Assembly (NCBI GenBank): GCA_964035545.1 | Contig: OZ037767.1 | Location: 28,129,628 to 28,193,627, forward strand | Direction: 5' to 3' | Length of the DNA: 64,000 nucleotides | DNA from: Bugula neritina | Taxonomy: Eukaryota > Bryozoa > Gymnolaemata > Cheilostomatida > Bugulidae | Shown: in pieces, positions 4,085 through 63,908 of the stretch | Position numbering within the stretch: position 1 is the stretch's first letter | How the letters are laid out: every line of letters starts with the position of its first letter | The notes under the pieces: generated by a model | What the model saw: only the letters and a program-made list of their open reading frames with translations | What the model was told of the DNA's origin: nothing | The model's database searches: none | Made by a program: the position numbers and the translations under genes

Positions 4085-6979
4085 ATGTTTTGGCTAAAAT
4101 ATTCCGTTGTGTTTCTACTACACGTACAGTTATCTACACGTAAGTATATATTATAATATCAGACACTTACAATGATCTACAGGTAAGTATATATAACTTA
4201 GTTTTATGCTATTACATAAACTATAATTTATTAATTTTAAGAATACTCTAAAATACATACATCATACTATATATAATATTATAAACTATATTAAATACAA
4301 TATAATATACAATACTAACTTGTGCAATATCACGCATTAAACGATATTATATATAATGTTATACAATGCTATATTATAAAAGAATAATTAGGACTACAAT
4401 ATATCACGAATCTAGCAATTTTGGTATTTATGTTACTCTACAGTTTACTCCACATTGGAGACTACTGCATTGTACGTACTGTATATACTATAAGTACTGT
4501 ATATACTATAAGTACTGTATATACTATAAGTACTGTATATACTATAAGTACTGTATATACTATAAGTACTGTATATACTATAAGTACTGTATATACTATA
4601 AGTACTGTATATACTATAAGTACTGTATATACTATAAGTACTGTATATACTATAAGTACTGTATATACTATAAGTACTGTATATACTATAAGTACTGTAT
4701 ATACTATAAGTACTGTATATACCATAAGTTCTGTATATACTATAAGTTCTGTATATACTGTAATCTACTGTACGTGTATATACTGTGAATACAAGCACCC
4801 AGTATATTTACGAACCTGCGTTATTATATTCTATTACCTTTAATAGAGGCAAAAGGGATTAAGACAATTGTTTTACGAACTCAAATCTACACACCTAATA
4901 AAATTATCATCAGCTCTCTGTGGATTATTCTTTGTATGTGTAAGGATAGAGTTTATACTTGATGTACTTGTAACTAGAGATAACCTGGTGTTATACAGTA
5001 ATATACATAATCTACTCTACACACCACACTATAGTCTACTCTACATATACATGCCCTGGTCTCTACTCTACACATACACACCTGCATTTAATGTTGGGGG
5101 GGGGGGGAGACTGAAAGCTGTGACCCCAGTTTAACAGCAGCAGTTAGAGTCTGAGACAGCATCGTACATGTACAAATTGATACATGGAGTTTAAATGGAA
5201 AAGGTTAAAATATTCAACAGGCACTCCAAAATCATAACAATTTATGTGAATAAATTACTATTCAATAGTTGAATAGAAAATAATTAATAATACAATTAAT
5301 TTAATTACTGGTTACAAAGGCGGACATTTTACTATTAATATTTAAATGTTTAATGAATTATCTGATGAAGCAATTCCAACGTAGCATAGCTTTTATAGTA
5401 GATGATGGGTGAGCTAATTTATTTAAATGTCATTTTCATTGCCGATTCCATAAAAGTTGACATTAGATAATTATTATGGTTACAGAATTCTACGCAAACC
5501 TTTGTTTTAACCGAAAGAGAACCCTGGACTGCTCCATGCAGGGCGCACCATTTGCCAATGGAGAGATGTCTGTTCTCTCAGTTACTATACTACTCAGCAC
5601 TGATGCCAGCAAACTACAGGCTAACAACAATGGCAAAACCTGCACTAACGTAGAGTTTGAGTGTAGAGCTACAGTGAGAGGTGGGCTATTTATAGATTAT
5701 ACCATACATTACAAGGTACCATATTCATAGATTATACTATAGAATGTAACTAATAACATACAAACTTGTTGCTGTTATTTCCATGGGAGACAACTGATGA
5801 AACGAAAGTTAAACTACGTAGAGTATTGAAGGGGTATAATTTATGACTCAAATCATTATCACTGCATTTTTCATGCCAGAAGACAAGATGGATAGAAGCA
5901 ATACAGAGGAGCCTAGATTTTTAGAAAGTAAAACATATAATTACATTTCAGCATTTACAACACCACACATGGCTGTACTAACTATATTTCTGTTTTCAGA
6001 AAGCCAAAGAGCTGATTTTGATGCAGGCATGCTAGCAGTGAACGATTACATTAAAAGAACATGTGATGGTAAAAGTTCTTGCTTCTTGGAGATTCCAAAC
6101 TGGACAGCAGTGAATGGAACAGCAGCTGAGTGTGCTAAATGGTTTCCTGGCGAAATATTTCACTTGAGGGGAGTTTATTTGGATATTGGTTGCAGCTTAC
6201 GTAAGTAGTCATGGCAACTGAATGCTAACTCCTGACTACACAACTAAACTGCAGGTTGCTAAAAGCTTCTTGAAGTAATAGAACTTCCAAAATAAATTTT
6301 CAACAAAGAAGGCTGAGGAAAACAAAGCTAATACTGCATGAGAGAAAAAGTGTAAAATGTGACCCACGTGAATAGAAGACAGATAAAGTAGTAGTTTGAG
6401 GAATCTTACAACAGAAAATGAGAATAAATTTGTTTAGTGTGGGAGTTGCATCACCATGACAACACTTATATGTTATGATAATATTATGTATTTTTGTAGC
6501 AATAGAGGAAGGCACCACAACTACTGTACAGGCAGTAAACCTCACAGAAAACACGAACTCAAGTGGCATGATAAATGATACTGTAACAGAGAACAATATT
6601 GAGACAACAACTCCCACAAGTATGTATGTTTAGTTATATAAGAAGTCATGCGTATGATATTCAAGTGACCAAACCATTTGTTATGCAGCCCATAACTTAT
6701 ATAGACAATAAATCTTAAAATATGCTACCGGCTACTACTAACCTTTGATATCTTTTTGGCATTACTGGATATACTAAACAAGGTAAGACAATTTCCATCA
6801 TATTGGTCAGGGTAAAGCAAACCTAATGGTATGTTATTTTAGAGAAAGGAAGTTTATTGAAATGGCCAAAGAAACGCCCAACACTACATGCAGAAAATAA
6901 TATGAATGGCTCAGCAACTGGAATCAGCAATGCAATATTATTATTTTGGAGTTATGTCCTCCTGACTCACTTGTATTAG
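4085..6979 (+). CDS. SLR1: secreted SUEL-like eight-cysteine protein with a probable GPI anchor
   Basis: Exons 4085-4139, 5486-5680, 6000-6200, 6500-6619, 6843-6979; four GT-AG introns, all phase 1; 235 residues. Exon 1 is a signal peptide (hydrophobic VVFLLHVQL). Exons 2 and 3 each hold four cysteines (LC, DC, TC, EC; then TC-DGKSS-C, EC, GC), the spacing seen in SUEL/rhamnose-binding lectin domains. Exon 4 is a T/S/N-rich stalk with three N-x-S/T sequons (NLT, NSS, NDT). Exon 5 ends in a small-residue patch (NGSATG) followed by hydrophobic ILLFWSYVLLTHLY and a stop, with no cytoplasmic residues, which fits a GPI attachment signal. It therefore lacks the receptor tail of its relatives. The donor and acceptor set is consistent throughout; the GPI call is inference. 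Confidence 0.75.
4476..4762. repeat. 18-bp minisatellite in SLR1 intron 1 (about 16 copies)
   Basis: Tandem unit GTACTGTATATACTATAA repeated about 16 times, nearly perfect, with a few substitutions in the last copies (cc and tt variants from about 4720). The unit length is a multiple of three, so several frames stay open through the array; these are not genes. Confidence 0.95.
5096..5107 (+). repeat. Poly-G tract (12 G)
   Basis: Uninterrupted run of 12 guanines inside SLR1 intron 1. Its length is likely variable between individuals and error-prone in sequencing. Confidence 0.9.
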
Positions 6980-7545
6980 CCAAGTAAGAGGAATTACCAA
7001 CAGCAACTTCCCAATGCATTGGAAGGAGAAGATAAAAGGGAACTTCTGTACGTGTTACATAAACATCTCTAAAGCTGGGCAGTTAACCATGAGAGCCAAG
7101 TATACAAGGTCAAAGGTCACATATATGAATATGAACTAAAATGCAGATTGTGATATGTACTTTTTTATAAACAACAAGATTACACTTATTTATTATGATT
7201 CTGTACTGGTTTCAACTAAGGTGGTAGCAAGAGATAAATACATTAACATAACATATTATGTAATAATTTATAATAAAATTAATGATTAGTGATTAAGTAT
7301 AGTATATTGCAGACCATTACTCTGATCTAGGAAATAAAGTTAGTGATGAGTAAGTACTAAGTACAAATAGGAAAGCTAATAAATCAGAAGGTAAATGAAG
7401 CAATAAATATAACAGAGACATATCTGTAAGTCACACTAAATTAGGCTGGGGAGTAGAGGGTAACAGATATGTTGAGAGACACAAGCAATATGCAGCATCA
7501 CCTTGAAAGGGAACAGCTAGCTTACTATAACGAATCTACTGTAAA

Positions 7546-8114
7546 ATGGGGAGGGCATTTCACATTATAGGTTACACCATTTGCTTAGCATCCTCCCTGC
7601 TAGGTGAGTTGCGAAATCATAATTTATATTTGTAATAACTCTTAGATTAATCAAAAGTTCAATCAATTTAATATATTTTCTGCTGCAGCCCTACATGGTA
7701 GCCATATTTGATTTAATGTTTACTGCAGGCTATTCTGATAAAATCATTCCTGCTTAGTAGATAAACATCTGTAATAGCTTTTATAGCAAGTATTTCTTGA
7801 AAGTAATAGCCATTGCAAGTTGGAGTGATATAGCCTACGGCTATTTGGTACAGGCTCTTTAGCACACATGCTATTTAACACACAAGTTACTAGTATAATG
7901 CATGCTATTTAGGTATACAATCATTATTATAAGTTCTTCTCAAACAGCTGTAGAATCTTTCACAACTGAATGGCGAACAGCTGGCCCAGACAGAGTAAAT
8001 GATGTCCAAACTAGCACAAAGAGCTCTACACAGCCAAAGCTCGTCACACAAACACCGGAGAAACCGAGTTCTCCATCAAGAGATAGCACAACTCATGAGG
8101 ATGGGAATAACTAG
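7546..8114 (+). CDS. SLR2: small secreted Ser/Thr-rich protein, stalk-only relative of the array
   Basis: Two exons, 7546-7603 and 7948-8114, GT-AG, phase-1 intron; 74 residues. Exon 1 is a signal peptide (MGRAFHIIGYTICLASSLL). Exon 2 is hydrophilic, with repeated S/T/P/K (TSTKSSTQPKL, TPEKPSSPSRDSTT), and stops at 8112-8114. There is no cysteine domain, membrane segment or GPI tail, so the product would be secreted and probably O-glycosylated. Signal-exon style, intron phase and position in the array tie it to the SLR genes, where the lectin-like exons E2 and E3 would sit in the single intron; no remnant of them is visible. It could be a real short gene, a decayed copy, or a set of alternative exons of SLR1, whose exon 4 donor is in the same phase. 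Confidence 0.5.
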
Positions 8115-8552: not shown

Positions 8553-8690
8553 ATGTTTACTAGAGTATATACAATATGTTTACTAGAGTATATACAATAT
8601 GTTTACTAGAGTATATACAATATGTTTACTAGAGTATATACAATATGTTTACTAGAGTATATACAATATGTTTACTAGAGTATATACAAT
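8553..8690. repeat. 23-bp tandem repeat, six copies
   Basis: The 23-bp unit starting ATGTTTACTAGAGTATATAC and ending AAT is repeated exactly six times without visible substitutions, which suggests recent expansion. Confidence 0.95.
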
Positions 8691-8988: not shown

Positions 8989-9339
8989 TTAGCCTAGGGC
9001 CACACGGTGCGTATTTTCGCATGCGAAAATTGAAATCACAAGTAGCAAAGGTGTCCACTGTAGCGTCAGTGATGCGTGATAAATAAAGCTTTCATTTTTA
9101 AATCGCACTCCGCTTTCAATAAAACGCAATTTACTGGAATGTAGCACTAAAATGAAGAAATTGGGCTCGCTGAATAACTACCAGCCAATTAGGTGACGAC
9201 GACAGAGACGATTCGCACTTGCGTTGAAAATGCAGAGCGACAAGTGCGAAGGTTTTCTCAACGCGCACAGTGGACACCTTTGCTACTTGTGATTTCAATT
9301 TTCGCATGCGAAAATACGCACAGTGTGGCCCTAGGCTAA
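8989..9339. mobile_element. MITE with 73-bp terminal inverted repeats
   Basis: Bases 8989-9061 are the reverse complement of 9267-9339 with a single mismatch. The ends read TTAGCCTAGGGCCACAC and GTGTGGCCCTAGGCTAA. Each arm also contains a palindrome, TATTTTCGCATGCGAAAATA-like. The 205-bp interior has no coding capacity, so this is a non-autonomous DNA transposon. Flanks read ATGAG and ATGAA, a possible imperfect target duplication. The superfamily is not certain; the CTAGGGCCACAC start resembles some hAT-type MITEs. Confidence 0.85.
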
Positions 9340-11045: not shown

Positions 11046-11047
11046 TA

Positions 11048-15615: not shown

Positions 15616-18600
15616 ATGATGGACTTTATAAAAAGTTGCTTGTTTATTTTATTAGCGTGGACACCAGTCTATATTCTTGGACAGACAAGTATGTATATGA
15701 TAATATTATATTCCTTAACTTTACAACTGTAGTACTAGTTAAACAAATGGTTGCACATGTATAAAAACATTCACAATTGAACTGAAATCCCTGAAGTTTG
15801 CTATACACTTTTCACTAGAACATTTTGGCTTTGATATAGTACTTCTGAAATAAGGCTATGAATTGAGCTGTAGTAATATTAACATTAGACAACTGAAATG
15901 CACAGCTTAACTCCACAGAGTGAATGTAATGAGGTAAATGTATGGTAATGAATTACTCATAGTGGTAGGTTACACACAATAGATAAATATGTATATCGTT
16001 ATGTAACTGGAGAAGAGGATATATCACACTGCATTGTATAACAGTTGTGATACAAGAATCCCACATCCAAAATATTTATGTAGTTTTTACTGTATTACAT
16101 TGTTGTCTGTAAAATTGTGTTGTGTTGTACTGTGTCTGGTGCATATTGTGTTTACTGTGTATGTGTTTAGTTTAGATTGTGTTTACAATATACTACATCT
16201 TTGGTTTATATGGTGTTTACTGTGTTTGGTACAGATTATGTTTACGCTGAATGAGACAGCCATTCATAGAAATTAATTTGAAAACAAAAACAAAACGCTT
16301 TGAGTTTCAGTTGAATCAGCTTTGTCACCATTTTGTTTAAACAAAAGAGCAAATGTTGACCAGGATGTGAGAGATAAGGCAGAGCCATTTGCATTGAGTG
16401 TAACATCTGTGGCAGTTATTGACACTAACTCACATTCCATTAAGTCAACCAGTAAGATATTATATAAGAATGATATGTTTATAATTGGAGTTTTAGTGGG
16501 TCACATCCTATAAAATATTCATCTCTTCCATCGAACAACTTCAACTAATAACCTAGCATTGGTGCTCCAACATAGCACAATATTTACTTATTCTATCCTA
16601 TTAATAGTTCGACTGAACTGAATGAACTTAATATTACAATTAAATGTCTAAATGAAAACATAAATAAATGGTACAGTATACTACCACAGGTCTTGTACTT
16701 CATTAGCTAATTCATCATGTGTATATCTAGGTGTTGTATGTGTGTGTGCCCTAGGTAGAAATGAATATCTAAGCTACACAAGGGCAGCAGTGGCAGCTTA
16801 ATTGATGTGAATAAATTCCAATACTATCATTTTATAACTTAAGGTATCAACAACCAAACAATAAAAATGCTTTTTAAATAGAATAAACTGGCTGGTCAAA
16901 CACAAAACTGCAAAAAACGGCATCATTCAGTTTACTTAAACTATGTCGCAACCACTACTACTACTATAAAGACTACTGCTACCACTAGTACTACTACTAT
17001 GAAAACTACTACTACTACCACTAGTACTATTACTAGTTACTACCACTACCACTACTACCACCACCACTACTACCACCACTACTACCACCGCTACTATCAC
17101 TACTACTACTATCACTACTACTACTAATCTTACTGTCCTGCACTACTTGGTACTACTACTACTGTTACTTCCTCCAGGTACCACCTATACCAACAGCAAC
17201 ACTGCCACTCTTGTAGCAATAACCAGGTGTACACATACAGGCAATATTCTACCAACCACATCTTACACCACTCTGTCCCTCTTTCCTATGTTTATCCTAA
17301 TCAGGTTATCATAGAGTAGATCACAGGATTATACTCAGGATATGAAATTAATTCACTAATCCAGTTGCACCTGCTAAGTCTATAATACACATAACTGTGC
17401 TCATCTACTCCATCTCTAGTATGCATCATCAGTGTACAATTAGTATCATATTTCTTTTACTTGATGAACTGTACAAATTATAACTTCCGAAAAAAATACT
17501 TATTTCCATCTGCACTTTACTTTACCCTAACTGCTTGATTGGGGTGAACAACTTGGACTGTCACTTCGTTTCCATTGCTTTCCAAGCATATGTGAATGGA
17601 TTTTGCATAAATCCATTCCATGTTTGGAAACAGTTGCAATGAGATGTAATGTATATGATTCAAGAGAATGATATAAAATTGAGAAGACAACTTTCAATAT
17701 TTCTAAAAGTACTTTTGATGACAATGAATATATAGTGTAGTGATTTAATGGTTTAATGTGTGTTTTGTTTCAGCTGAGAAGAACTATCTGTCCCAGACAT
17801 CTGCAGTGTGCAGTGGAGCCAGCTATGAGCTTGGCTGCGGTACAGGAAATGGTGATAAGGTCATGAATGTCACCAAGGTCATTCTGGTCATAGAGGCAGA
17901 GGCACAGGCCTTTGCATGTGAAGATTCGCAGCTCTGTTCTTTGCATTTGGGTGGAGGTATGTGACATGTGGCGAATGATAATGTTATACTGTTAAGTGTT
18001 ATACTATTTAATATAATACTATTTAGCATTATACTATTTAGTAATATTATACTATTTAGTATTATATTACAGTATTTCACTGCCCAATACATTTAGCTAA
18101 TTACAATTACAAACTAATATTAATAACTAGTACCAATTATTAGGTATTCCTTTCCATAGCATTCAAAATCCATTTCAATCCAACAGTAATTTGTCTACTA
18201 TATTTTGTTCCTATTGATTAATAAGTTTTCTGTCACTTGTTACGTAAAGATTTAATCAACTCCGTAGCCTTTCCTAAACTGAACAAGCAATTCCCACTCT
18301 TATTAATTATAACTCTCTGTTTATTAAGATGATGACGACAATGTTCAAGAGGAGGTGCTATTAAACCTGGTCAAGTCTATCCACAGCAATTGTCAAGGTA
18401 AAGCCAGCTGTACAGGAACATTGCCTGCATACCAGCAAGTCAGCGTAAACTTTCCATCAAATGCCTACGGAGGCCTCTGCGGATGGGACAGCCCAGAATA
18501 CTTGAGTCAGCTCAGCATAGTCACAAAATGTGTTGGTAAGATAGACACAAGAAAAAGCTCTTGATTTTTTGCAGCTATTCACTTTGTTTCAAGTATAAAA

Positions 18601-20138
18601 ATAACTTATATCCATGCTTTATACAATTGCAAAAAAAGTAAGAATTAGTACATCCCAGTGCCAAATTTGCAGATGACAGGTGAAAATGAATGTTTTATCA
18701 AGTCATTTACTGTAATGCCAAACCCAGTAGCTACCATTTGCAGAAAATATTATTATTTCCATTAAAGTTAAATGATTAGCATCAAACATGGAATATAAAT
18801 GAACCACTAGCTATTGTTGTACACATCTTTTAGATTCTAAAACTAAGTCAATAAGAAAAGCTTAATCCTATGAACCTTCAAGTTTAAGTTTAGAATTTGT
18901 CTTCTCCTTAGTTGAACTTAGTATAGGCAATGACTGTTTCAAACATTTTTCTTTCTGAAATTCTTTTCAATTTTTGACCACAGAACTTACAGTGTTAATA
19001 AATTTATTCGCCTAGATTGTTAAAACTCCTTTACCATGTCAGCTCTCTTAATGACGTGTTGGTAGAATACAAAAAGTTTACTCATTTATGATTATGCAGT
19101 CAGCTAGCTACCACATAAAATGACACAATGAAGTCATCAAACCTTTATTCACAAGACCTACGGATAATATTAGTATCTTTGGAACTTAATTTGAATAAAC
19201 TTGCATTGCACAGATGCTGACCTAGTGAGCACACTACCGCCGTACGAATATTCACCAGGAGAAACCCCAACAACTAAACTGTCAACTACTACCACCGCCA
19301 CAACAACTACAACTACAACACCGACAACAACTAAACCAAAGACTACAGGGAAACCTGTCATTACCACAGTGGGAGAAAAAGGGGTGAAAAGTCCAAGGAT
19401 AGGGGGTCTGCAGCAACCAGCTATAGCAGGTTGGCGCCAGTGTTACAAGTGTAAAAGAGCGGTGTTTTACGCGGCAATATGCGAAGAGAAATCGGAACAG
19501 CCACGCAGACCAATACCAGAACGGTTCTGCCGGTAAACATAAAACGTAGCCAGTGTTCTAAGCTTAGATGTGAGCAATATGAGAAGAGAAGGCTGGAGCT
19601 GTAGATCAGTGTGGTGATGGTTGGCTTTACACTTTTTGTCTAACATCGAATAAACACCGCCATAAACACCGCTCTTTATGTTTTTATTTCATTTCTAAAT
19701 TTCTTAACATTTCTTTATAATTTATAACATAACTAATACGCAACCATTTGTCTGATATTTCCTAGTAATCAATTATCTAGCATGTGGAGTTGTCAACTTT
19801 CTCATAGAGTGAGTAACTCCTAAAAATATTTATCACCAAAATTTGTTTGATATCCAATTTTACTATTACAATCTTTTGTTATTACAGTTGTCAAGCCAGT
19901 GACCTACTTCTATTCACGTATTCTATGTCTAATTCTAGGAATAACCATAGCGTTCATTGCCCTAGGCGTTGTCGCTGGCGTCGCAGCTCTCGTAGGGGTG
20001 GCTATCCTCATTTACATCCTCTACAATAACTCAAGCAGAGGAGGAGCAGTGTCTAAAGCACCCAGTATTACCGAATATCCACTTAAAGGGACAACTCCAA
20101 ACGATAGTGAATTTGTAGAAAAGCAGCCCATAACCTGA
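15616..20138 (+). CDS. SLR3: SUEL-like single-pass membrane protein with a short divergent tail
   Basis: Exons 15616-15688, 17774-17956, 18329-18535, 19214-19429, 19888-20138; phase-1 introns; 309 residues. Exon 1 is a signal peptide (MMDFIKSCLFILLAWTPVYI). Exons 2 and 3 carry the eight cysteines, with C-QGKAS-C as the C5-C6 motif; the WW motif of the core paralogues is absent. Exon 4 is a Thr-rich stalk ending QQPAIAG, like the QPALAG of SLR6. Exon 5 holds a transmembrane helix (LGVVAGVAALVGVAILIYIL) and a roughly 40-residue tail with one tyrosine in ITEYPL; the LGAPQAQ and EYTGVKP motifs of the other tails are missing. The exon 4 donor (gttggc) is weak; without it the frame runs on to a stop at 19536 through transposon-like sequence. 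A poly(A) signal follows the stop by 13 bases. Confidence 0.78.
16950..17170. repeat. ACT/ACC trinucleotide-rich tract in SLR3 intron 1
   Basis: Imperfect (ACT)n and (ACC)n triplets dominate this stretch. It could be read as Thr-rich coding sequence, but no flanking splice sites and domain context support an exon. Confidence 0.75.
17990..18066. repeat. Short tandem repeat TATACTATTTAG(TA) in SLR3 intron 2
   Basis: About five degenerate copies of TTATACTATTTAGTA follow the exon 2 donor closely. Confidence 0.7.
19451..19678. mobile_element. Small inverted-repeat element (MITE-like) downstream of SLR3 exon 4
   Basis: Bases 19451-19474 (AAAAGAGCGGTGTTTTACGC within) and 19657-19678 are near-perfect inverted copies around the core AGAGCGGTGTTT. 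The interior of about 180 bp has no gene. It begins 21 bp past the exon 4 donor, so the open frame beyond that donor is largely the element. Confidence 0.55.
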
Positions 20139-30300: not shown

Positions 30301-31831
30301 CAAATAAGCTGTCACAGTCCTTAGAAAATACATATTCACATAATCCTATATGATTTACTCCAAGCTCAAATTTGAAATTAACGCACAAAAACCTTCCCTC
30401 TGTTCTTATTAATTACCCAAATGTTTGCAAACCAGAAATGTCTTGTGCTACAAATTTCGCTGTCTAAATGTGTCAGCCATTTTGATGCCGTTTTCCTTCA
30501 ATAGCTGTGTTTTCTCGTAAACATCTCAATATGAACCAACCTTCACTCTGTTTAGCCTGTAATCTCAAGCTTTTAATCAGCTCTGCAAGCAAACTATACA
30601 CGAATGTTAAAACTCTTTTGAACTATAAAATTAGCAGTCAAATTTTAGTGCTTTATAAGCACATCTGACTATACCAAGATTGCTCGCTGATAGTTTACTA
30701 GAAACAGTTGATACATAGATCAGAAAAGTGTCAAAAATCTCATGTCAAGAGTCTCTATAATATAATATAGCTTAGCAAGTTGAACTTAGATTTCTAGACT
30801 AACGAGTATGAAAATATCCCACAGGAACGGAACAACCCTTCATTAAGATAAATGTCTACATGCCTGTCAATTATAATACTCTATAACAAAGTCAAGTCTA
30901 CCTATATCTGCTCCAGTTTCTCTCTTTAAAACCATGAAGTGAGATCTTGCAGGCAATATAATTGAGTAATTTGCTATTTATTAGTCAATTTAGATTACAC
31001 TCTGCAGTCTACAATATAGGACCTATGAATAATTCTAACATAATAGCCATAAGGAACCCTCAGAGAAACTATTTCATTGGTTGCAACAAATATAATATGA
31101 AATTGTAAGCAAAGGCATGAGCTATTTAGGGTATTGAAGTGGCTTGAAAGTTTACCATAGTCACTTCCTACCTAACCCATGCACTTGAGTTAATATGACT
31201 GAAAACAACTGCAAAAATGTACAATAAATATACAAGTGAGATTTCCTTGCAGCCAATCAGAATTAGGTATGTTAATAGTAGAAAACCAGGTTTTTCGCTA
31301 ATTTTAGAGGAAAACTTGGATCTAGAGGAAAGAATGGCGGCTACTTTGAACGTCCATGATGAGACAGAGGAGGAGGATGGGGTGAGTGAGTCAGAAGATG
31401 CAGGCGAGTATGTAGAGAGAGCAGACGGATATGAAGAGAGAGCAGAAGGATATGTAGAGAGAGCAGACGGATATGAAGAGAGAGCAGAAGGATATGTAGA
31501 GAGAGCAGAAGGATATGTAGAGAGAGCAGACGGATATGAAGAGAGAGCAGAAGGATATGTAGAGAGAGCAGACGGATATGAAGAGAGAGCAGACGGATAT
31601 GAAGAGAGAGCAGAAGGATATGAAGAAAGAGCAGATAAATCCGATGACAAGGTAGATGAGTACGATGACAAGGTAGATGAGTACGATGACTTCCACGAGG
31701 AATATTCTGACGACACTTTCACGTCGTTATCAGATGAAATCTGGCAGTCCATTTCCACGCCAACCATGAGTGGAGATCAGCAGATCCAGGAGATGGCAAG
31801 AGAACTGGAACCGAAGACTGACATTTCATAA
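24356..31831 (+). CDS. SLR4: SUEL-like receptor with a long tyrosine-repeat cytoplasmic tail
   Basis: Exons 24356-24410, 26534-26722, 28037-28249, 28450-28581, 29297-29491, 29895-30128, 31308-31831; six phase-1 introns; 513 residues. Order: signal peptide; eight-cysteine domain over exons 2 and 3 (C-SGRNI, QC-KRVIH, then KC-EGKNV-C, LPLWWAL, KYFTGVYVHLDC, where KYF matches the SUEL KYL motif); Thr/Pro stalk ending FPVFIPIYQPYLEGRE; transmembrane helix (AIGLAIAILIVLLIVLY) with CCERYRN, LGAPQAQ; exon 6 with EYTGVKPDEF and SGQIMYES. Exon 7 starts EENLDLEERMAATL, as in relatives, but then adds 11 heptads of the GYEERAE/GYVERAD type and a D/E/Y-rich end. The Cys-Cys beside the membrane is a likely palmitoylation site. 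Tail signalling through phosphotyrosine is inference. Confidence 0.88.
26751..27521. repeat. 15-bp minisatellite in SLR4 intron 2, about 51 copies
   Basis: Unit GGTATCACACAGTAG with GTATC/GTGTC/ATATC and TAGG/TAAG variants. One length break occurs near 27126. Because 15 is a multiple of three, long open frames run through it on both strands; they have no codon variety and are not genes. The array begins about 30 bases after the exon 2 donor. Confidence 0.95.
31383..31640 (+). repeat. 21-bp coding repeat in SLR4 exon 7
   Basis: Eleven units of a 21-bp repeat encoding GYEERAE, GYVERAE, GYEERAD or GYVERAD. It stays in the exon frame and every unit keeps its tyrosine. Near-identity of units points to recent expansion. 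Confidence 0.9.
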
Positions 31832-47500: not shown

Positions 47501-48707
47501 GCATACGATGGAGCAGTCCGGACAGATCATGTACGACACAATGGCTAAAGGTAACAGTTGCTCCACAATAGATCGACTGGAGAGAAAAGGAAGTCCCTCT
47601 CAATCATATCTGATGGCAGGTTATCGCCACCAAGGACCCACTGATTACAACACAGGTATAGTTTGGTTTCACCATCTAGTGGTTACAACACAGGTATGGT
47701 TTGGTCTCACCATGCATCTAGTGGTTACAACACGTGAGGAGCTCTTTTTAAGCTTATCCCTTCTTAGTTCTTACCCGATAAAGAAGTCTACAGAATAATA
47801 ATGAAGAATGAGTCATGGTGCTTTTCCAGTCTTAGTTTCCACTCAGTTCCTATTTCATTATAATGTTACAGATTTCTCTTGTCTGTAATCATACAGGTGC
47901 CCTTAGATAGTATCTGAGTCATAAAACATAGTTGAATTTCCAGAGTGCCAAAAAATTTCTTTTAGCTCTCCTAGTGTTGGGTTGTTGCAGCCACTTGGTA
48001 ATTAGTGGACAAAGTATGTTTTACATCCATAAGTTGAACGTGTTTAGTCACTGCTCAAGAGGAACGATATTTTCTAGCTAAACTGTCATGATATTTCATG
48101 TAAATAAATTCTAATGCAACAGATACATGACTAAATAAATAATTTAAAAGGAGCACATGTTAAACAATAGAAGGGTTTTTGGTATATAAAAATGAGTCTT
48201 CTATGAAGCCATCTTTGGTAGAAATTAGAATAATGTCAGTTAACTTAGTAGTGGAAAAATAAAAAAAATATAGTCCAGATGTCATTTTTACCCTTGAGTT
48301 TAGGATAGGTATTTTTTGAAAAGCTGAAAAAATTTGGATTTAAGCATTTATTTTGGGGACATCTATTTCTTAAAGTGGGAAATCTTACAACATTTGCCTA
48401 ACTATTTAAGGACTATACATAAGGTCTATGAGAATATAACTTGGATATTTTTCTAAGCATGCTACTTTTTCACACTTTACACTGCACACATCTCCAGCTC
48501 TCTGGACAGAAGTGCTTGCAAATTCCTGAGTTAAACAGTGATAAAAATTTCACTCAAAACTGAAGAGATAGTGAAAACCAAACTAGAGTTATTGAAGCAA
48601 AGAATCTGATAATATTTTTGTATCTTGAAGCTGAGAACCTGGAGTTAGAACAGAGAATGGCTGCAACGCTGAGTACAGAACTGGAAGAGGAAAGTTCTGC
48701 TCACTAA
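44530..48707 (+). CDS. SLR6: SUEL-like single-pass receptor, full seven-exon form
   Basis: Exons 44530-44599, 44936-45127, 45399-45599, 45970-46104, 47015-47215, 47440-47655, 48631-48707; six phase-1 introns; 363 residues. Signal peptide LVILFTLGMCF. Eight cysteines: DVC, NTC, NC, SC-EPRVIH; then RC-HGKPK-C, LPDWWQL, NC, HAEC. The stalk is TTPTTTTAFPVFIPIYQPAL followed by AGRE. Transmembrane GVAIGLALVILLVLLIVLY, then CCERYRN, LLKKLGAPQAQ and DELDYG. Exon 6 has DALGEYTGVKPDEF and SGQIMYDTM; the YDTM string is a YxxM type that in other receptors binds PI3-kinase p85 SH2 domains. Exon 7 is AENLELEQRMAATL plus an acidic end. Exon 6's donor and adjoining sequence are tandemly repeated, giving an in-frame alternative donor at 47734. 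Intron 4 contains a minisatellite. Confidence 0.88.
46174..46690. repeat. 45/47-bp minisatellite in SLR6 intron 4, about 11 copies
   Basis: Units of TGAGTATGAGTTAGATTATA followed by ATACTCAGTACTAGTTGGAG and TAGAT, with an ATATGAG length variant and TTATAA/TTGCTA/TTACAA/TTACTA substitutions. Confidence 0.92.
47640..47735 (+). repeat. Short tandem repeat spanning the SLR6 exon 6 donor, three partial copies
   Basis: TTACAACACAGGTATRGTTT recurs at the exon end, again about 38 bp on, and a third shorter TTACAACAC precedes GTGAGG. Each copy brings its own GT. Only the first (47656) and third (47734) leave phase 1. Confidence 0.75.
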
Positions 48708-50711: not shown

Positions 50712-53700
50712 ATGAGGGGATTTTTACTATACTCGTTGGCATTTGTTTTGCCACTACTACTACCTGCAGTGCACTCAGGTGAGCTTATATCACACATACT
50801 GTCTATAATATGCTAAATTACAAGATATTCCCTATTATTATTTATTGAATACAAGATCGGTATCAATGCACTGCATCTTAGAACACATGTGTTATACATT
50901 ACAATACACATGTGACTTAGTACTTAGCAGTAAAAATCATAACTTGGAGTCATCACCTCCAGCACATAGCTGAATAGTTACTGGGTTTTTCTTAATTAGT
51001 TAAATAAGTGGAGTAGTCCTCCCGTTGTAAGAACACAAAACCAAGTGCCAGTGAATAAGCCTAGAAGCTTAGCTTTTCTTATGTCAAAGTTTATTCAACA
51101 AACTTATACAAAGAATTTAGTCTTCACTAGTCAGCAAGGTTTCTAACAAAATAGGTTCCCATATTACACGTAATTGTATGCATAGATTGCATGAAGGAGT
51201 TTTTGTGTTGCAGCGAGAATTTCGAGAGTTTACCATTATATATGTCAAGGACAAACATTGGAGAATGCCAGATGTACTACAGCCCTGCAGGCAGTCATAG
51301 CTATACAGTCCATCACTGTTCTAACAACATCCAACACTACATTTCTAGCCCAGAATAACAGCGAGTGTGAAAGAGAATATGATTGCATATACACAATGCA
51401 AGGTATATTATATTACAACTTCAGAGCAGTGAAATGATATAGGAATAGCAGTAACGTAACACTTGCACAAGAATCATTTTCCTTTCATTAAACTGAGGTA
51501 GGTGCAAAGATAAGCTGTTTTAGAAACAAAGGGACTCAACCAATACTTGCAACAATAGAAGGTATCCACCCATCAGGTAGAAAATTTTGTTTTAAAAATT
51601 AGACAAATAATTAAGAGCTTGAGCTCAATAGATATATAATGACTAAAGCTGCTTTTGAGTTCTCTGCTTTCAACTATGTCAAGCCATGAAGGTGGGTAGA
51701 TGGAATTTTGTCCTGTTATGTTTTACCAGATATAGAGAACAAAATCTCAAGTGACTGCTAACTATACTAAAAATCTTAGTCTTGTGTTGAAAAAAAAGGC
51801 TAATAATGAATTCAGAGATGCTTATACAGTGACTTTGTAGACTTCTAGAAACTTGTTGACGGTCTAAAAGCATGAATAATCTTCTATGAAAAGAGACTCT
51901 AAAAGCCCTTAAATAAGCATGAAACTCTGTGAGAGTTGTTTACTCATAACACACAGGTGCAGACGACTCTAGTGTACCAGCTGACTACAGATATCTGTAC
52001 AGTTGGATCTCCCACAGCTGTGAAGGCAAACAAAGGTGTGACCAGGACACCGGCAGCATACCGCTATGGTGGAGACTAACGGAGTTAAACATCACTTCCT
52101 GTGCACATGCTCAGACGCAACATTTTGCAGCAGTTTTCCTGCATTATGAATGCAGAGGTGAGACTTCTACCACAGTCTATGCCAACATATAAAATTAGAC
52201 CACTGGTTAGGTGTTCTTTTAAAACTTTTTCAAAACCATGGCAGCCTCGGAGTTATTACAATAGATAGTATTAGTGTGGGTTCCTAACTAGACATCCCGT
52301 TGCCTTTCAGTTCTGGTCTTTCAGACTCAACTTAGACCTGTCTGTGAGTGTTTACCTTTTAGTAAGTCAGATTAGAAAGTAGTGAGGTGCATACATGTAA
52401 CAACATTATTATAGTATGAGCTATATAGGCCATGTCTCTTGTATAAAACGTAGTAAATGTTTGGTTAGGTATGCAACTTCTATAAAACTGTAAAATGTTT
52501 TACAAAGAGACTTCCCAAACACAATATGTTGGACACCACCTCATGGCCTACAGTGTTACAAATGTTTAGCCTCTCCATAAAACAAGTCAATGATAATTAC
52601 CATATCCTTCCCATCATTCCATCATGTGATGCATGCTCAAGTCTGAATGATGTTTATTCAACAGTAAGCAGTAATGTTCTATTATTTTGACCTAATAACT
52701 ATAATGTAGTTCAAAATAGTTTAAAATATTAAGTAACTTAAAGCCTTGGTATGTGTATAGTTTCAGAAAATATCAGCACTGTGGCAGCTCCACCATCAAC
52801 CACAACAACAACTACCAGTCAAACCACACCAACTACAAATCAAACTTCGACAACTACAGGTGAAACTACATCAACTACAAATGAAACTACAACAATTACA
52901 GGTGAAACTACAACAACTACGAGTGAAACTACATCAACTACAAATCAAACTACAACAACTACGGGTGAAACTGCAACAACTACAGGTGAAACTGCAACAA
53001 CTACAGGTGAAACTACAACTACAAATGAAACTGCAACAACTACAAATGAAACTACAACAAGTACAAATGAAACTACAACAACGGGTGAAATTACATCAAC
53101 TACAGGTGAAACTACATCAACTACAAATGAAACTGCAACAACTACAAGTGAAACTACAACAAGTACAAATGAAACTGCAACAACTACAAGTGAAACTGCA
53201 ACAACTACAGGTGAAACTGCAACAACTACAAATGAAACTGCAACAACTACAAGTGAAACTACAACAAGTACAGGTGAAACTACAACAACTACGAGTGAAA
53301 CTGCATTAACTACAAATGAAACTGCAACAACTACAAGTGAAACTGCAACAACTACAAGTAAAACTGCAACAACTACAAATGAAACTACAACAATTACAGG
53401 TGAAACTACAACAACTACGAGTGAAACTACATCAACTACAAATCAAACTACAACAACTACGAGTGAAACTACATCAACTACAAATCAAACTACAACAACT
53501 ACGGGTGAAACTGCAACAACTACAGGTGAAACTGCAACAACTACAGGTGAAACTACAACTACAAATGAAACTGCAACAACTACAAATGAAACTACAACAA
53601 GTACAAATGAAACTACAACAACGGGTGAAATTACATCAACTACAAATGAAACTGCAACAACTACAAATGAAACTGCAACAACTACGAGTGAAACTGCAAC

Positions 53701-54967
53701 AACTACAAATGAAACTGCAACAACTACAAATGAAACTGCAACAACTACGAGTGAAACTACATCAACTACAAATGAAACTGCAACAACTACAAATGAAACT
53801 ACAACAACTATGGGTAAAACTACATCAACTACAAATGAAACTGCAACAACTACAAATGAAACTACAACAACTACAGGTGAAACAACTACCCCAGCTACAA
53901 ATACATCAACAGCTGTGAATACCTCAACTCAAAGCACTACTGATGGAGGATCATTTCAACAGGGAAGCAACATTACACCAACCATAACTACAGAATGTAA
54001 GTTGTGTTGTAAACCAAAAACATACATTCTGAGCCACTATGTAGCACTTTCGCTGAGCACATTACTAGATTATTTTTATTTTTAACATAAGAATCTTCTC
54101 ATATCTTGTTTAGAGTAATTGAACAATGTTCCCGCAAGTAAACAATTACCTAAATACAAACAAACTTTTCGACATCTTGTATATATTAACTTTTCTTTCA
54201 TTAATTAATTACTTGAACATTCTCTTTTGACATTCACTAGAAATATTATGCTACCCAATAGATAAGACAATTCCTCATAAAAACATACAATGACTATTTC
54301 AGCACTGATAATCATCATAGTAGTAGTGGTGGCAATAGTCCTGATAGCAATACTGGTTCTCCTTATCTACTGCCTCACTACACGAAAGGCAAGATCTAGA
54401 AATGGAAATGTCGAAAGTGCAGAAAATATACACGATTCCAGGGAAGTTTTAACTGGTAAGTATTATGTAACTGGTTATTTGATGATGGGTTGTGGGATGG
54501 TTGTTTTTAAAGGTCTGGAGCTGTTAATCTCACTCAAATAATGGAATTTTTAACCTAAATAATTTTGGTTTTTTGTCCTAAAAAATTGGGAACTTTTGAA
54601 GATAGTTTTTTGCAGACTAAAAGTCTGAGAGTCATGAGAAGTAATTTTGCCTTCCGAATATCACAATACTTCATGAAAACTTACTTGTAACTAATTGAAA
54701 ATATTAAATGCAAGTTCCATTGCTAAAATAGCATTTATTGCATAATATCTAGTACATACATATTTATTGTCAAAATAAGAGGGACTTATAGAACATATGC
54801 ATGTGTGCAGATGAAACTGCATTAAAACATTTGTGGAGACAACTACTAGCACATTGCTAGACAAATGATACTAAATATTTATGTGTTTAGAAGAAGAGAA
54901 TTTAGCTGCCGAGAACTTAGCTGCCGAGAACTTGAGAGCAAAACCAGAGGAATCCATAACCATTTGA
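50712..54967 (+). CDS. SLR7: SUEL-like membrane protein on a giant mucin-like stalk, exon 6 absent
   Basis: Exons 50712-50778, 51214-51402, 51957-52157, 52767-53996, 54303-54455, 54891-54967; five phase-1 introns; 638 residues. Signal peptide SLAFVLPLLLPAV. Eight cysteines: IC-QGQTL, RC, EC, DC; then SC-EGKQR-C, IPLWWRL, SC, HYEC. Exon 4 is 1230 bp, about nine times the usual 132-135 bp, and encodes some 410 residues of ETTTTT/NETATTT/GETTSTT repeats with many N-E-T and N-Q-T sequons, so a heavily O- and N-glycosylated rod. Exon 5 is a transmembrane helix (LIIIIVVVVAIVLIAILVLL) with a short tail lacking CCERYRN and LGAPQAQ. Exon 6 (EYTGVKPDEF) is not found between 54455 and 54891. Exon 7 has the usual 77 bp but reads ENLAAENLAAENL and ends ESITI, possibly a class II PDZ ligand. 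Confidence 0.83.
52790..53900 (+). repeat. Coding minisatellite of the SLR7 stalk, with an internal block duplication
   Basis: Degenerate 21-bp units of the type GAAACTACAACAACTACAGG (7 residues each), with some 18-bp and 15-bp variants. A block of about 220 bp beginning AATTACAGGTGAAACTACAA at about 52893 recurs almost exactly from about 53391, the second copy carrying one extra unit pair. Confidence 0.9.
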
Positions 54968-55976: not shown

Positions 55977-58900
55977 ATGAACCTGCTCACATTGAAGATA
56001 ATACTTGCACTCCTGGTTTACTACCAAACTGAAGCTTGTAAGTAGTGAACGTTATGATTCGATAGAGAAAAGAGGTGGGATAAATTGAAAATGCTTAAGT
56101 TCTTTATTACCCTTTATGATTTTTGGTCTAGGGTTTGGGGTTGAAATCTGTGTCGCATAGATAAACACCATTTCTAACTTTCCAGTAAATACAATGTGTG
56201 ACATGAATGCACCAGCTTCTGTTTTACTAAATAATTCAGAAAGAAAATGTCTACAAAATAACATTTTTCAAAACCGTTACTGTTATTTCTAAAAGTATCG
56301 AATTGGTTTAAAGTTTTACAACAAAATGTAATATAAAAATCTTATTAAAAACAGTTTCATCCAAATTCATCTTGAAGACCATTAATGTAAGTTCTTTCAA
56401 TTGAGATGTTTATGTACCTCTTATACTCAATTCTATTTAATTATTTATTCAAAACAATGTGAACTAAATATTACAGAGTGAATTTTGAGAAAAATAAATA
56501 AAAATCATCTAAAAATAAATCCATTTATTATTAGGAAAATCCTTCCCTCTCTTAGATGTTTATAGAAAAGAGTAAACAATTTCATAATTAAAATAATATA
56601 TTCGATAAGTTAGGTATTTAACATCAAGTAACTTAGACGTCAGTATCCTTCAGGCTTACACTATAGTCTATAGTCTATACCATTAGTACACTGAAACAGC
56701 AATTAATACTAGACCTTTAGAAGGTGAGCTCAACACACTAAACTCTCTAAACTTCAACTGTGCAAACATGGTACTAAAAATGTTTTAAACTTCAGTTCAA
56801 CAGTTTTCAACTGTTGGAAAACAAATCTTTCATAGACATAAAAGTTAGTAAATATCTTTCAAAATATCTAAATTTTGAAAATCAAGTTGGCAAAGATGCA
56901 AAGCAGGGTGGATGGTGCCGTATAGTTGAAAACAAAAAGTGGTAATATCAAATATCTATAGGCATTGCATGAACAGTGTTTAGAACACAGAAATTATTGG
57001 CACATTATCTCACAAAGTACCTAATTTCAATTTCACAACTTCTAACACAAAGTAAAATGGTAATATCCATTAAATATACTGTATAACCTAACCACAGTCA
57101 TTATCTAATATGATAATTAACATTTAATACAAACAAAATTTACTATTAATTATTCATAAAAGAGATTTTGAGAATATATTATAATCGATTAAACATACTG
57201 CATGAACTGGAGTTTTAAATGATTTGAGGTGCAAGTGAGTATGTTCTACAACACGTGTGGACCACACCCCTCCCCCACCTGCACCATCTGTCCCTGCAGG
57301 ATCTGTCCTTAGAGCATGCAGTGCATTGTGATATTAGTGAGATATTCAACACTAGTAACAAGTGCATGAGCTCAAGAGCATAAAAGTGCATATACAAGGA
57401 AGAGAAGAGTCCACTTTTAATTCCTAGCACATTATAAAGCTTCCCAACGCAGAATTTCGAGGCATATTCTCGATCTATATTGAACACATTTTCCTTAGTA
57501 TAAAAGTTTGCTAGAAGAAGGTTTTATTCTTAAAAGTTTTAAATCAACATACTATTTTCTTCTATAGATATAAATAATCGAAGTTGTTTTCATCATCAAG
57601 TCTTAATTTAAATTACAGGGTGATTATAGTTGTGTTGTATTTCAATCACTTAGACGTGTCGGAAACAATAGACTTGCACGGCTGTCAGGGGAGACGACTG
57701 CCAATGGAGGAATGTAGTGACCCAGCGTCAAAAATGAAGGTGGAATCAGTGACTATATATGCCACAGCAAACTCTACTAAGATAGCCAGCAAGAGCTGTT
57801 TCTCCATACAAGACTGCCCAAGAACTATACACAGTGAGACGAAGACCAACACAATATATAATATTGAGGAATTGATTTGACTTATAAACATGGTAGTGAG
57901 AGTGAACTACAGTAGTCGCAAATAATATTATGTGTGCTAACTACAGTATGCTCATATATACTATGTGTGCTAAATGCAGATGCACAAGAAATTGTCTACC
58001 CTTTTGTCTGCCTAGCATTGTAAGTTGAAAAAAATGAAACCAGTAACAATAAACTCAAACTAAATAAAACATTTCATTTACATTTAAATTTATATTTACC
58101 CTGTATATGAATTAATATTCAATTTATAGTAAAATTTGTATTTAATCCACAGCTGCTGATGACGTTGGGATAACAGATACATTTCAACATCTGTATATGT
58201 GGATTGTACACAAATGTGAAGGGAAACGACACTGTGACCCTGGAGGACAACTCCCACACTGGTGGTATCTCACTAGCGACTTTAAGGATGATAACTCAAA
58301 CATGTGCCCTAAAACGGGGATAAAATATTTCGCCGCTGTTCACGCCCACATATCCTGCGTTGGTAGGTGATAGGAAGACATTGCAACCCTTGTGAAAAGT
58401 TTCTGTGAGACTATATGATTTAGATGATATTTTCGTACAGCTACATTGGTGCAGTTTAGTCATTGTAAAGGCTATGAGCTATACACTCTATTTAGTATAC
58501 TTATAGTTCAGGAAAAAGAGTTTTAGTTTCACTAATGATTTACTAACTTGAAATATTTAATTGAATTTTGGGAATGAAATTCTTTGAGTTTTCTTGTAGT
58601 AAACGAAGACGTGTTCACCAAGCCACCACCTCCAGAAACCACACCCAATACAACACCAGCCACACCTCCAACAACTGTTCCATTTGCAGCATTTATCCCA
58701 ATTTACCAACCAGGACTAATTGGACGAGAAAGTAAGTAATCCCAGTTGGCTTCTAGTAAAAATGATAATGAAATTTCTCTGACCATGGGGATGCCAAAAG
58801 ATTAATCATCATTTCTACTGAGTTTGATAATATTTAGGAGCTTTTTTTGAGTAGGTTATTAATTAAAATTAAGAAAATGTCAGCAACACCAAATACTATA

Positions 58901-59910
58901 CTGTTGACTTATTATTACAGAAATATATTTGGGAGTAGCAATTGGCCTAGCCCTAGCAATACTGATACTAATACTCATCACCATATACTGCTGCGAGAGA
59001 TACAGAAACATCATGAAACTGAGTGTATTGTTACGAAAACTCGGGGCACCGCAAGCTGAAGATGGTGGATACCTGGACGAGCTGGAGAATTATGGGAAGC
59101 CAAATGACTCATGGGATAACTACAGTAAATATTGTTACGTGCTGTAAAACATACAGGAGTTTTATCAAACACAATGCCAAGTTTGTTATGCAAATGAGAT
59201 TCTTTGAACAATCATCACAAGACAAATGCTGTAATGGTGACTCAAACAAGCTTGAAATATAATTACGTATTACAATAGGCATGCCCACTTCCACAAAATC
59301 ATCAAATTTCATAACAGTATTGAACTTTTTGATTAGTATTGGTAGATTATTGAGACTGCAGGGTGTAACTTCCATGTTTCAGATCCTGACTGCATAGCTG
59401 AGTATTCTGGGGTTAAACCGGATGAGTTTGTGACGTTGGATAGAGCCTCCGTAGTGTGTCACAAGCAGTATATACTTGGACACAACACTCTACGCTCAAC
59501 CAACTCCTGTTCAACAATAAACAGAGCAGGGTACGAGCATAGCCTGTGGAGACTGAATGGCCAAACTAACTCAGGCTATAGAGAGTACAGAAACTCTCTC
59601 AATACAGCCACACCGGGAGTTGTCCCGCTCAGCTACGAGTCAGGTACCAACTATATTAATATAATTAATACACTACAATATTATAATATAATGTATTAAT
59701 GCAATATAAATAATGTAATTTATAATATAACATATATATATAATATAATATATATATAATATAATTAATACACTACTATATAACAATAATATATATAATA
59801 ACATATACTACAATAATGTGATATATAATATAATATAACAATATAATACAAAATATAATATAATGCAACTAATACACTATAATACAATATGATATAAATA
59901 AGAATATATT

Positions 59911-59977
<67 letters not shown>

Positions 59978-61157
59978 TATAAATAATTAATACACTATAT
60001 TATTTTTTAGCCCCAAAGTAGCCCAGAAATAATAGGAGAAAAGGAAATCCAATGACTAAACAGATATACTAATTACAATAATAATAGCAGCTGTCACTTG
60101 CAATACAATGCTATAACAACTGGGCTAAGAATAGTTGACAAATCTAAAATTAATATCTGAGAAGATCGAAATAATTATTCTAATAGGGCATGTCAATTTA
60201 AGTTTGATAGTTCTAGACTCTTGATTAATAGTTAGCGCTGTTCAGTGAGTAGAACGTTTAGTTTGGTGGAGTTGGGTGCGCCATACTGTGCCAGTAACTG
60301 ATGATGTAAATGCAATGTGTGTTCACTTAAATGCTAAAAATAGCCCTAATTCATTATCAATTCAAAAATTGTGGTTCTTGCAACAGTTTTACATCATCAA
60401 GAGTTTTGTGATATTACGTTCTGTATACTTTTGAACAAAGAGCGGTGAATATGCGAATGCAATGAACTTTTCTCAATCTTTACCGATTTCACAATCCACG
60501 GAACTAAACGAAACAATGGTTCAAAAATAAAAAAATTAGCAATACCATTGAATAAATATTTAACTATATCACTAATTTTCAAAAATCTAAGGCCTGAGCC
60601 TGCTTTAAATAACCCTTTTCAACCAGGGGTTTACAGTGAATATAAACTTGCATGAATTTGAGTTTTTTTTTTATTAATTTTAGAAAACGCATTAAAACAA
60701 AGTTTGCAATGCTGGCACAATATGCCAATGTATTAGCATTTCTCAAACCCTCTGCTATTCTTTTTTGACAGCGGAAAACATAGAAATGGAGAAAAGAATG
60801 GCAGCAGCTTTGGGTCCACCAAGCAACATGCAAACAGAAGAAAGATATTACAGACAGAGTGAAGATGAGAAGCTATACAGCAGCGATGAAACAGCTGGCT
60901 CTGACAGCAGCGCAAGTAGAATATTGGTGGGAGAAGATGACTCTAACAGCAGCGCAAGTAGAATAGTGGTGGGAGAAGATTACTCTAACAGCAGTGGAAG
61001 TAGAATAGAAGATGATCCATCAGACAGAGAAGAATACTGTGAGACAAGAGAACTTCACATTATAGCAGAAGAAAGGTTTGAAGAGGAAATAGCCGAAGAG
61101 GAAGTAGCCGGGCAAAGTGATCTGTACACCCTACAGACAAAGAGATCTCCGTTATAG
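55977..61157 (+). CDS. SLR8: SUEL-like receptor with an extended acidic serine-rich tail
   Basis: Exons 55977-56037, 57654-57833, 58153-58362, 58600-58731, 58921-59124, 59383-59643, 60772-61157; six phase-1 introns; 477 residues. Signal peptide LKIILALLVYY. Eight cysteines: GC-QGRRL, EC, SC, DC-PRTIH; then KC-EGKRH-C, LPHWWYL, MC, IKYFAAVHAHISC (KYF at the SUEL KYL position). The stalk ends FIPIYQPGLIGRE. Transmembrane AIGLALAILILILITIY, then CCERYRN, LLRKLGAPQAE, DELENYG. Exon 6 has AEYSGVKPDEF but IMY is replaced by HKQYIL, and it is longer (261 bp). Exon 7 begins AENIEMEKRMAAAL and then adds three copies of an S-N-S-S-A-S-R-I-V-V-G-E-D-like unit and a glutamate-rich end. Tail expansion at the same exon as in SLR4 but with unrelated sequence. 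Confidence 0.87.
59650..59995. repeat. AT-rich tract in SLR8 intron 6, including (AT)31
   Basis: Imperfect TATAATATAA repeats from the exon 6 donor onward, with a pure dinucleotide (AT)n run at 59913-59975. Confidence 0.9.
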
Positions 61158-62487: not shown

Positions 62488-63908
62488 ATGGAGTGGATAT
62501 ACATAAAAATTATCTTTATTTGTACCAGCTACACCATCGTACAGGAATGCACAGCGTGTAAGTTAAAATTAAATCAATATTGAAATGTATTTCCAAAGAA
62601 AATCATATAATGTTTATGAGCAGACTGCAACTTATGACTAAATGAAATACATTCCAATGGTGACGTGATGTGAATTAGATTAAAGTTTAAAAATCAAAAT
62701 TGATTAGTTTCAATAAAAAATATGTTCAGATGTTAGTCTTGCATGACCTTACATTTAATTATTCTATTCATAAAGATTAGATTAATTTCTTTTGTTTTCA
62801 GTCACGACAATGAACATGGATATCTACGTATGCCAGAATGGATATATCCCACCAAGCAAATGTTTTCATGAATTCTCTGTGATGCATGTTCGTTCGGTGA
62901 GCCTTCAGTTCAAAGACAGCGCTGTCAACGTATCAGATAGAAGTACGAGGTGTCATCGGGAGGTCAAAGTGCAACGAAAAATCATCAGTAAGTCTCAAAT
63001 TATACTATATTTCAACTTAACACAAAGATAATTAACATCTTCAACTTAAAAGCCTAAACTGATACAGTAGACCTAAAATATCATCTAACCTGATACATGC
63101 TGCTTCACACAAATCCTAAAAGTCTTAATTCTACTTCGTCATTCCAACCAAGTCTCAAACACAAGATCAACTATGAGAATAACCTCAGAATGCAGTAGAT
63201 AGTTTCATAGAATGATATTTCTAGACATCCTGGACCAAGCCCTGACCCCACAGTACAGATACATATACAGGTGGGCCAGACACAAGTGCCAAGGTAGGAG
63301 GGAGTGTCTACCTGGTAGACTACCCAGGTGGGATCAGATCCAAGGAGACGGCACGGCTGAGGGGAAATACTTTAGCGGGATTCGTATAGATGCAGCGTGT
63401 GACAGTGAGTTGACAATATGAATCTCTAATATCAAAGTTGCCTTTTTAACATATAGCTAAAAGAAGAACTTTATCCCAATAGTCTATGGTCAAAAAGTTG
63501 AATAATTTTACCATCAAGGTGAAAGAGGTTTCACATATTTAGGCTGAACTGCCATTAGTGTAATTCAGTATTACCACAGAATGAAAAAGTAGCCCCAGCA
63601 CCACAAGTCAATCTTGTATGTGGTGATGATGGTAGCATTACAAACAAAGAAAACAGATATAACACACTTGGACGATGATCCAACACTATTTATATGTTAA
63701 TCCTCAAACCTTTATAAACTTATATCTCATGCAGCTGCACCTTGTAGTATGAACATTAATAATACTATCATCATATGGTACTCTGTAGCAATACCAGTTC
63801 CCACAGAGGAAGCTCCCGTATCCACGACAACGACATCCACAACTACAACAGCCAAAGCTGCCGCCATATCTTTCTACATTCTCACACCGCAGCTGACGCA
63901 CATAGAAA
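62488..63908 (+). CDS. SLR9: SUEL-like protein, first four exons only, lacking two cysteines
   Basis: Exons 62488-62557, 62802-62987, 63225-63404, 63789-63908, then a GTAAGT donor at 63909; three phase-1 introns visible; 185 residues before the window ends. Signal peptide IKIIFICTSYTIV. Exon 2 has VC-QNGYI, KC and RC but no fourth cysteine (the segment after RC reads HREVKVQRKII). Exon 3 has KC-QGRRE-C, PRWDQI in place of the WW motif, KYFSGIRIDAAC, and no seventh cysteine. Exon 4 is a short Thr-rich stalk (VSTTTTSTTTT). Frame is open and all splice sites are canonical, so it looks functional despite the lost pair. Transmembrane and tail exons should lie to the right. Confidence 0.8.

Follow-up and report, generated by a model that had tools for sequence, protein, structure and literature searches.

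To our knowledge, EVA-1 is the only single-pass receptor with an ectodomain of the rhamnose-binding lectin (RBL) type. Linked genes for surface proteins are known from colonial animals, as at the Alr locus of Hydractinia, and the ectodomains of the Alr, FuHC, and fester proteins are immunoglobulin (Ig)-like or of the short consensus repeat type, as opposed to the RBL-type domain considered below. Here, we describe eight related cell-surface genes (A to H), arranged in one row and all on the plus strand, in a 64,000-nucleotide stretch of the cheilostome bryozoan Bugula neritina (the window; chromosome 3, or C3, positions 28,129,628 to 28,193,627 of 32,418,041 bases). The assembly, tzBugNeri2.1, comprises 216.00 Mb, with a 32.42-Mb chromosome 3 and a scaffold N50 of 24,795,343 (PMC11480708). 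We think it fairly probable that the array encodes single-pass or glycosylphosphatidylinositol (GPI)-anchored receptors for recognition or adhesion, with a divergent RBL-type domain on a stalk, paralog-specific and probably protein ligands, and a common output through the tail.

Comparison with the described systems places the array near EVA-1 and the latrophilins but within neither family. Like EVA-1 (C21orf63), the proteins combine a single transmembrane (TM) segment with an RBL-type ectodomain in which the sugar-binding residues are not kept (PMC2430599). Unlike EVA-1, which carries two RBL domains per protein, they carry one, on a Thr/Pro stalk, with a different tail that has no Pfam match, and they are encoded by eight tandem genes; the EVA-1 cytoplasmic region and paired RBL domains that define the EVA-1 family were not found. 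The lectin domain of latrophilin (ADGRL) and the lectins SUEL, CSL3, and SUL-I gave the best fold matches and agree in cysteine order and in the C4/C7 pair lost from gene H. In contrast to these lectins, the array domains have no YGR/DPC motif, no PF02140 score, and a replacement of the glutamate after C1, and the proteins are neither G protein-coupled receptors nor secreted tandem-domain lectins. Separate, orthodox SUEL domains also occur in the B. neritina genome.

The tandem array is real. Each gene follows the same plan: a signal peptide exon, a domain of six or eight cysteines split over two exons (E2, with C1 to C4, and E3, with C5 to C8), a stalk, a membrane anchor, and then a tail. Iterated profiles built from one gene's exons recovered seven E2 exons (E = 1e-11 to 3e-25), eight E3 exons (E = 1e-11 to 6e-32), and four each of the TM, tail, and terminal exons, on the plus strand only; the E2 exon of gene B was recognized by eye and scored by profile afterwards. 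All 37 introns in the models of genes A to G are GT-AG and in phase 1, an agreement in phase that is not independent, since the junctions were picked with phase 1 in mind. Independent support for the gene D model comes from a predicted protein of B. neritina from Virginia, which has the same 369 residues except for five substitutions, and independently predicted Virginia proteins also correspond to genes G and H. The gene models and profile matches thus bear out the claim of an earlier note on this sequence that surface proteins which have diverged but are built on one kind of ectodomain are encoded here in tandem. The note's count of nine genes with one shared ectodomain needs correction: the domain occurs in eight genes, with eight cysteines in seven of them and six in gene H. 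What was listed as a ninth, stalk-only gene, SLR2 (7546 to 8114, plus strand), is a two-exon open reading frame of 74 amino acids with a signal-like start, a short Thr/Ser-rich exon, and neither cysteine domain nor TM segment; homologs of it were never searched for, and it is doubtful as a gene. The partial gene at the other end, SLR9, is gene H, incomplete only through the window edge.

Structure prediction suggests that the ectodomain is probably a divergent SUEL/RBL domain of the latrophilin type and not a new fold. AlphaFold models were compared for the Virginia ortholog of gene D (P0001) and a homolog from Watersipora (P0004), which are 31% identical in the ectodomain. VIA-align ranked RBL lectins first for both models, above unrelated rows, and plain Foldseek ranked them first for the second; the predicted structures have the alpha/beta arrangement of the RBL fold. 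The two models are not fully independent, because most alignment rows were common to both. The order of the cysteines agrees with that of latrophilin/SUEL-type lectins, and the disulfides of the RBL fold are C1-C3, C2-C8, C4-C7, and C5-C6. Eight cysteines, whose pairing is predicted, are present in seven of the eight Bugula domains and in all three from Watersipora, with C2 displaced by one residue or more in the alignment of gene C. Gene H lacks exactly C4 and C7, which pair in the RBL fold.

Several results weigh against this assignment. Two cysteines lost at random would form a native pair with a chance of 4/28, so the loss in gene H, taken alone, is modest evidence. PF02140 gave no match in any of five spliced ectodomains tried among the eight genes (E up to 10) or in seven longer proteins (E up to 0.1); an orthodox Bugula SUEL domain scores 63.9 bits. 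The ectodomain profile found no match among PDB sequences, and its profile-profile match to RBL domains was weak (P = 0.0038; probability, 8.8%) and was outscored by 1 of 100 cysteine-preserving shuffles. Every structural Z score was below 8, the range in which the tool warns of a merely common arrangement. Neither model had a Foldseek match at an E value of 0.001, no RBL stood among the best 50 Foldseek matches of the first model, and the YGR and DPC motifs were found in none of 11 domains. Pfam scans of single exons, spliced ectodomains, and longer proteins detected no RBL or other believable domain, and 22 weak Pfam matches of gene F were set aside, its stalk and TM matches falling under their cut-offs. 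Intron position was rejected as a sign of RBL kinship because it varies in position and phase among orthodox SUEL loci: across four such loci, the intron lies after C4 (one), just before C4 (two), or just before C5 (one), in differing phases. These points would suit an unrelated, bryozoan-specific cysteine-rich fold whose likeness to RBL is a prediction artifact. We regard that as quite unlikely, given the first rank of RBL lectins in VIA-align for both models and in Foldseek for the second, and the fit of both the cysteine order and the C4/C7 loss to RBL. Pfam detected no Ig domain, in line with the earlier note, which saw no match to the immunoglobulin-type allorecognition genes that it knew; a divergent RBL domain is more probable than a new fold.

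If this is a lectin fold, it has apparently diverged past the reach of Pfam and lost its sugar site. The sugar-contacting glutamate after C1 is present in none of the eight Bugula genes and in one of three Watersipora domains. The lysine of the KYL motif occurs only in C, G, and H among the 11 domains, and with the glutamate absent, no Bugula gene joins the two. Protein ligands are therefore likelier than sugars, and binding of proteins is the most likely mode for these receptors. The same loss argues against innate immune pattern receptors, with paralogs that bind microbial surface sugars or proteins. We find that reading doubtful, although the predicted RBL-type fold and the diverged ectodomains would suit it, as would the role of this kind ascribed to secreted rhamnose-binding lectins; one from a bivalve has been examined for antimicrobial activity (PMC10817417).

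The membrane anchor and tail are not the same in all eight genes. Genes C, D, E, and G have seven exons each and a common tail, which is also present in divergent form in gene H; its motifs include LGAPQA, then EYTGVKPDEFLTLDK, and then ENLELERRMA. Genes B and F have other TM tails, and gene A has a GPI-signal-like end instead. Among the motifs proposed earlier as fixed, the GK between C5 and C6 holds as GK or GR in all eight genes. WW is confined to C, D, E, F, and G, and LGAPQAQ and EYTGVKPDEF, in the forms LGAPQA and EY[TS]GVKP[DN]EF, to C, D, E, and G. A Pfam scan (E up to 0.1; P0001 to P0005 and P0011) gave no match for the tail, and weak Mid2 matches around the TM segment in two of six proteins only.

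Divergence between paralogs was uneven along the proteins. For the pairs among C, D, and E, nonsynonymous divergence (dN) was 0.60 to 0.66 in the ectodomain versus 0.29 to 0.31 in the TM segment and tail, about twofold. The contrast was smaller for D-G and E-G (0.67 and 0.61 versus 0.46). Running counter to this trend, the C-G pair was reversed (0.49 in the ectodomain versus 0.63), in our opinion perhaps owing to repetitive sequence at the end of the tail in both genes. The dN/dS comparison that had been suggested yields no test of selection, because synonymous sites were saturated in 11 of 12 comparisons. A fast ectodomain over a slow tail in C, D, and E is what would be expected of receptors with a shared signaling partner, and the combination of diverged ectodomains with a conserved tail suggests that there is one such partner but several ligands. 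The tail is also strongly conserved between Bugula and Watersipora, which would suit developmental receptors for adhesion or guidance, comparable with EVA-1 or latrophilin, that have diversified to serve zooid budding or the nervous system. Eight diverged paralogs with interchangeable anchors exceed the sizes of the EVA-1 and latrophilin families, and we hold this alternative to be possible rather than probable. In its favor, EVA-1 is itself a single-pass RBL receptor that acts as a Slit coreceptor, and transmembrane RBL domains have been argued to bind proteins (PMC2430599).

Allorecognition would require diversity of another kind. Under this explanation, the paralogs and their alleles would decide whether touching colonies fuse, as might be expected of diverged surface receptors arrayed in tandem in a colonial animal. 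Both histocompatibility and fusion have been recorded for bryozoans (PMC11686985), and the 2020 B. neritina genome paper expected such genes and mentioned only weak similarities to known ones, Alr1 among them (PMC7576161). FuHC and fester of Botryllus are linked surface-protein genes of a colonial animal, and fester has over 60 protein alleles (PMC3549757). Loci of this type, Alr included, are highly polymorphic, unlike the three genes compared here, which differ little between two genomes. Between the United Kingdom (UK) and Virginia sequences, gene D shows 99% identity, with 5 substitutions among its 369 residues and 3 of the 130 ectodomain residues changed. Gene G differs by 32 substitutions and 14 gap columns, the Virginia ortholog being 14 residues shorter, and its tail (21/255) is relatively more substituted than its ectodomain (6/130). 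The gene H ectodomain differs at 3 of 122 residues; its tail, annotated partly in another frame in P0011, was left out of the count. Together, the D, G, and H ectodomains differ at only 12 of 382 residues, which does not support the allorecognition role that the earlier note had raised; with two genomes, three of eight genes, and no baseline for the genome as a whole, the case against such a role is weak and no refutation. We consider allorecognition very unlikely. The broader proposal of a putative recognition-receptor locus is partly supported: the surface proteins of the array have diverged but have one type of ectodomain in common, and Pfam detected no Ig domain in them.

Copies outside the array are few. 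The Virginia orthologs of D, G, and H are P0001 (EB796_005021), P0005 (EB796_005017), and P0011 (EB796_005016), each given with 147,112 bases as its longest contig, consistent with the same order. EB796 is presumably the locus-tag prefix of the 2020 draft genome, which was made from colonies of the shallow (S) genotype collected in Virginia (PMC7576161); in the UK, type S is the one usually encountered (PMC11480708). Watersipora subatra has three homologs, listed with a 64-Mb contig. One of these, P0002, is 61% identical to gene D (55% in the ectodomain, where the next best match of either is 38%), and between the two species orthology is claimed for this pair only, because a tree of the 11 ectodomains had no starred branch. 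Further matches comprised five tail pieces and a sixth protein, P0012, nearly identical to the TM segment and tail of H. No believable homolog from another phylum stood among the matches in 5.8 billion proteins. Relatives may be missed, since a protein is considered only if it has 5-residue words in common with the query, and one protein search scored only the 7992 candidates that shared most words. Three low-scoring matches, to proteins of lobster, Owenia, and C. brenneri (E = 0.027, 0.053, and 0.93), were taken as low complexity, and the weak matches P0013 to P0017 (E = 0.018 to 0.93) were dropped.

Single-exon searches of the 215.8-Mb genome with queries from A, B, E, F, and G detected no intact further copy, and an initial genome-wide search by pattern gave no match. 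A copy of gene D that retains the introns but has decayed lies 15 Mb away on the minus strand (C3:12.98 Mb; 12,980,000 to 12,989,999), with 85 to 87% identity in DNA and broken E2, E3, and tail frames. Within 50 kb on either side of the window, nothing apart from gene H matched better than an E value of 0.31. A match at C3:27231731 was dropped because it reflects TM-like similarity in a different type of protein.

In window coordinates, and all on the plus strand, the genes are as follows. Gene A (4085 to 6979) has exons at 4085 to 4139, 5486 to 5680 (E2), 6000 to 6200 (E3), 6500 to 6619, and 6843 to 6979, according to the splice model and E2/E3 profile matches; its stalk is short, and its C-terminal exon is hydrophobic, GPI-signal-like by eye, and without the shared tail. 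Gene B (15619 to 20138) has exons at 15619 to 15688, 17774 to 17956 (E2), 18329 to 18535 (E3), 19214 to 19429 (Thr stalk), and 19888 to 20138 (its own TM segment and short tail). Gene C (24356 to 31831) has seven: 24356 to 24410, 26534 to 26722 (E2), 28037 to 28249 (E3), 28450 to 28581, 29297 to 29491 (TM), 29895 to 30128 (EYTGVKPDEF), and 31308 to 31831 (tail). Gene D (32985 to 37315; seven exons, 369 amino acids) has its ectodomain, with the predicted SUEL/RBL-type lectin fold, at 33389 to 34581 (E2, 33389 to 33583, with C1 to C4; E3, 34387 to 34581, with C5 to C8). Genes E (44530 to 48707) and G (55977 to 61157) each have seven exons with the shared TM segment and tail. Gene F (50712 to 54967) has six, with its own TM segment and short tail and a 412-codon Thr-rich stalk exon (52761 to 53996). 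Gene H occupies 62488 to 64000 in the window and continues at 64029 to 64519, where TM segment and tail are fused into one exon, and at 64969 to 65381, ending 1.4 kb past the window. In-frame coding minisatellites were also seen, of 21 bp in the F stalk (52761 to 53996) and the C tail (31308 to 31831) and of 42 bp in the G tail (60772 to 61157).

Exons of ASCC3, a helicase gene on the minus strand, flank the array. Exons for its C-terminal half lie to the left (1310 to 2668, with Pfam Sec63 at 1555 to 1887). The best matches of a 1705-residue ASCC3 probe follow one another from 87.5 kb down to 70.0 kb (window coordinates), and the next residues resumed at 2.67 kb. The two junction exons splice cleanly across one GT-AG intron (NPT|YYELDD; the human counterpart is presumably NPSYYNLGD). 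Because this minus-strand intron spans 2669 to 70009 (67,341 bp; 2669 to 64000 in the window), genes A to H (4085 to 65381) lie inside it on the opposite strand; the gaps between ASCC3 exon matches have a median of 429 bp over 29, the 67,341-bp gap included. The intron also holds, past gene H, a 165-amino-acid open frame (about 68688 to 69182, plus strand), a possible gene whose last 159 residues had no Pfam match at an E value of 0.01. An inverted repeat of ∼60 bases at about 8998 to 9335, with arms that by eye start near GGGCCACAC and contain TTTTCGCATGCGAAAA, is perhaps a small DNA transposon. Beyond the ASCC3 region, long open frames like those of a gag-pol long terminal repeat element (about 101800 to 107700, downstream) and endonuclease/reverse transcriptase-like open frames of the long interspersed nuclear element type (about -38900 to -36000, upstream) were noted by eye.

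Taken together, the proteins look like receptors for recognition or adhesion, since their outer parts are probably a strongly altered lectin fold. In the mechanism that we favor, each protein would present one divergent RBL-type domain on a stalk that is rich in Thr/Pro or Thr and presumably O-glycosylated, and each paralog would have its own ligand, probably a protein, either on other cells or in the medium. Binding to C, D, E, G, and H would be reported through the conserved cytoplasmic tail, which may dock a common partner. A, with its GPI-like end, and B and F, with other tails, would bind without that output and may serve as decoys, adhesion proteins, or coreceptors. Tandem duplications inside the one intron would have enlarged the array, with later divergence concentrated in the ectodomain. 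The gene family as it stands lies within one intron of a helicase gene with a housekeeping role. A bolder proposal, which we consider unlikely, is that this lineage-specific lectin-fold array in the ASCC3 intron was turned to protein recognition as the first recognition-receptor system to be described from bryozoans, with expression differences and hidden allelic variation in A, B, C, E, and F governing recognition of self and non-self or of symbionts. In the open-access literature on bryozoan allorecognition, fusion, lectins, and receptors, a molecular recognition system of bryozoans was described in none of the titles and opening lines of abstracts among the papers listed. The array offers a concrete candidate for one, with few genes, in one place, and with a clear domain.

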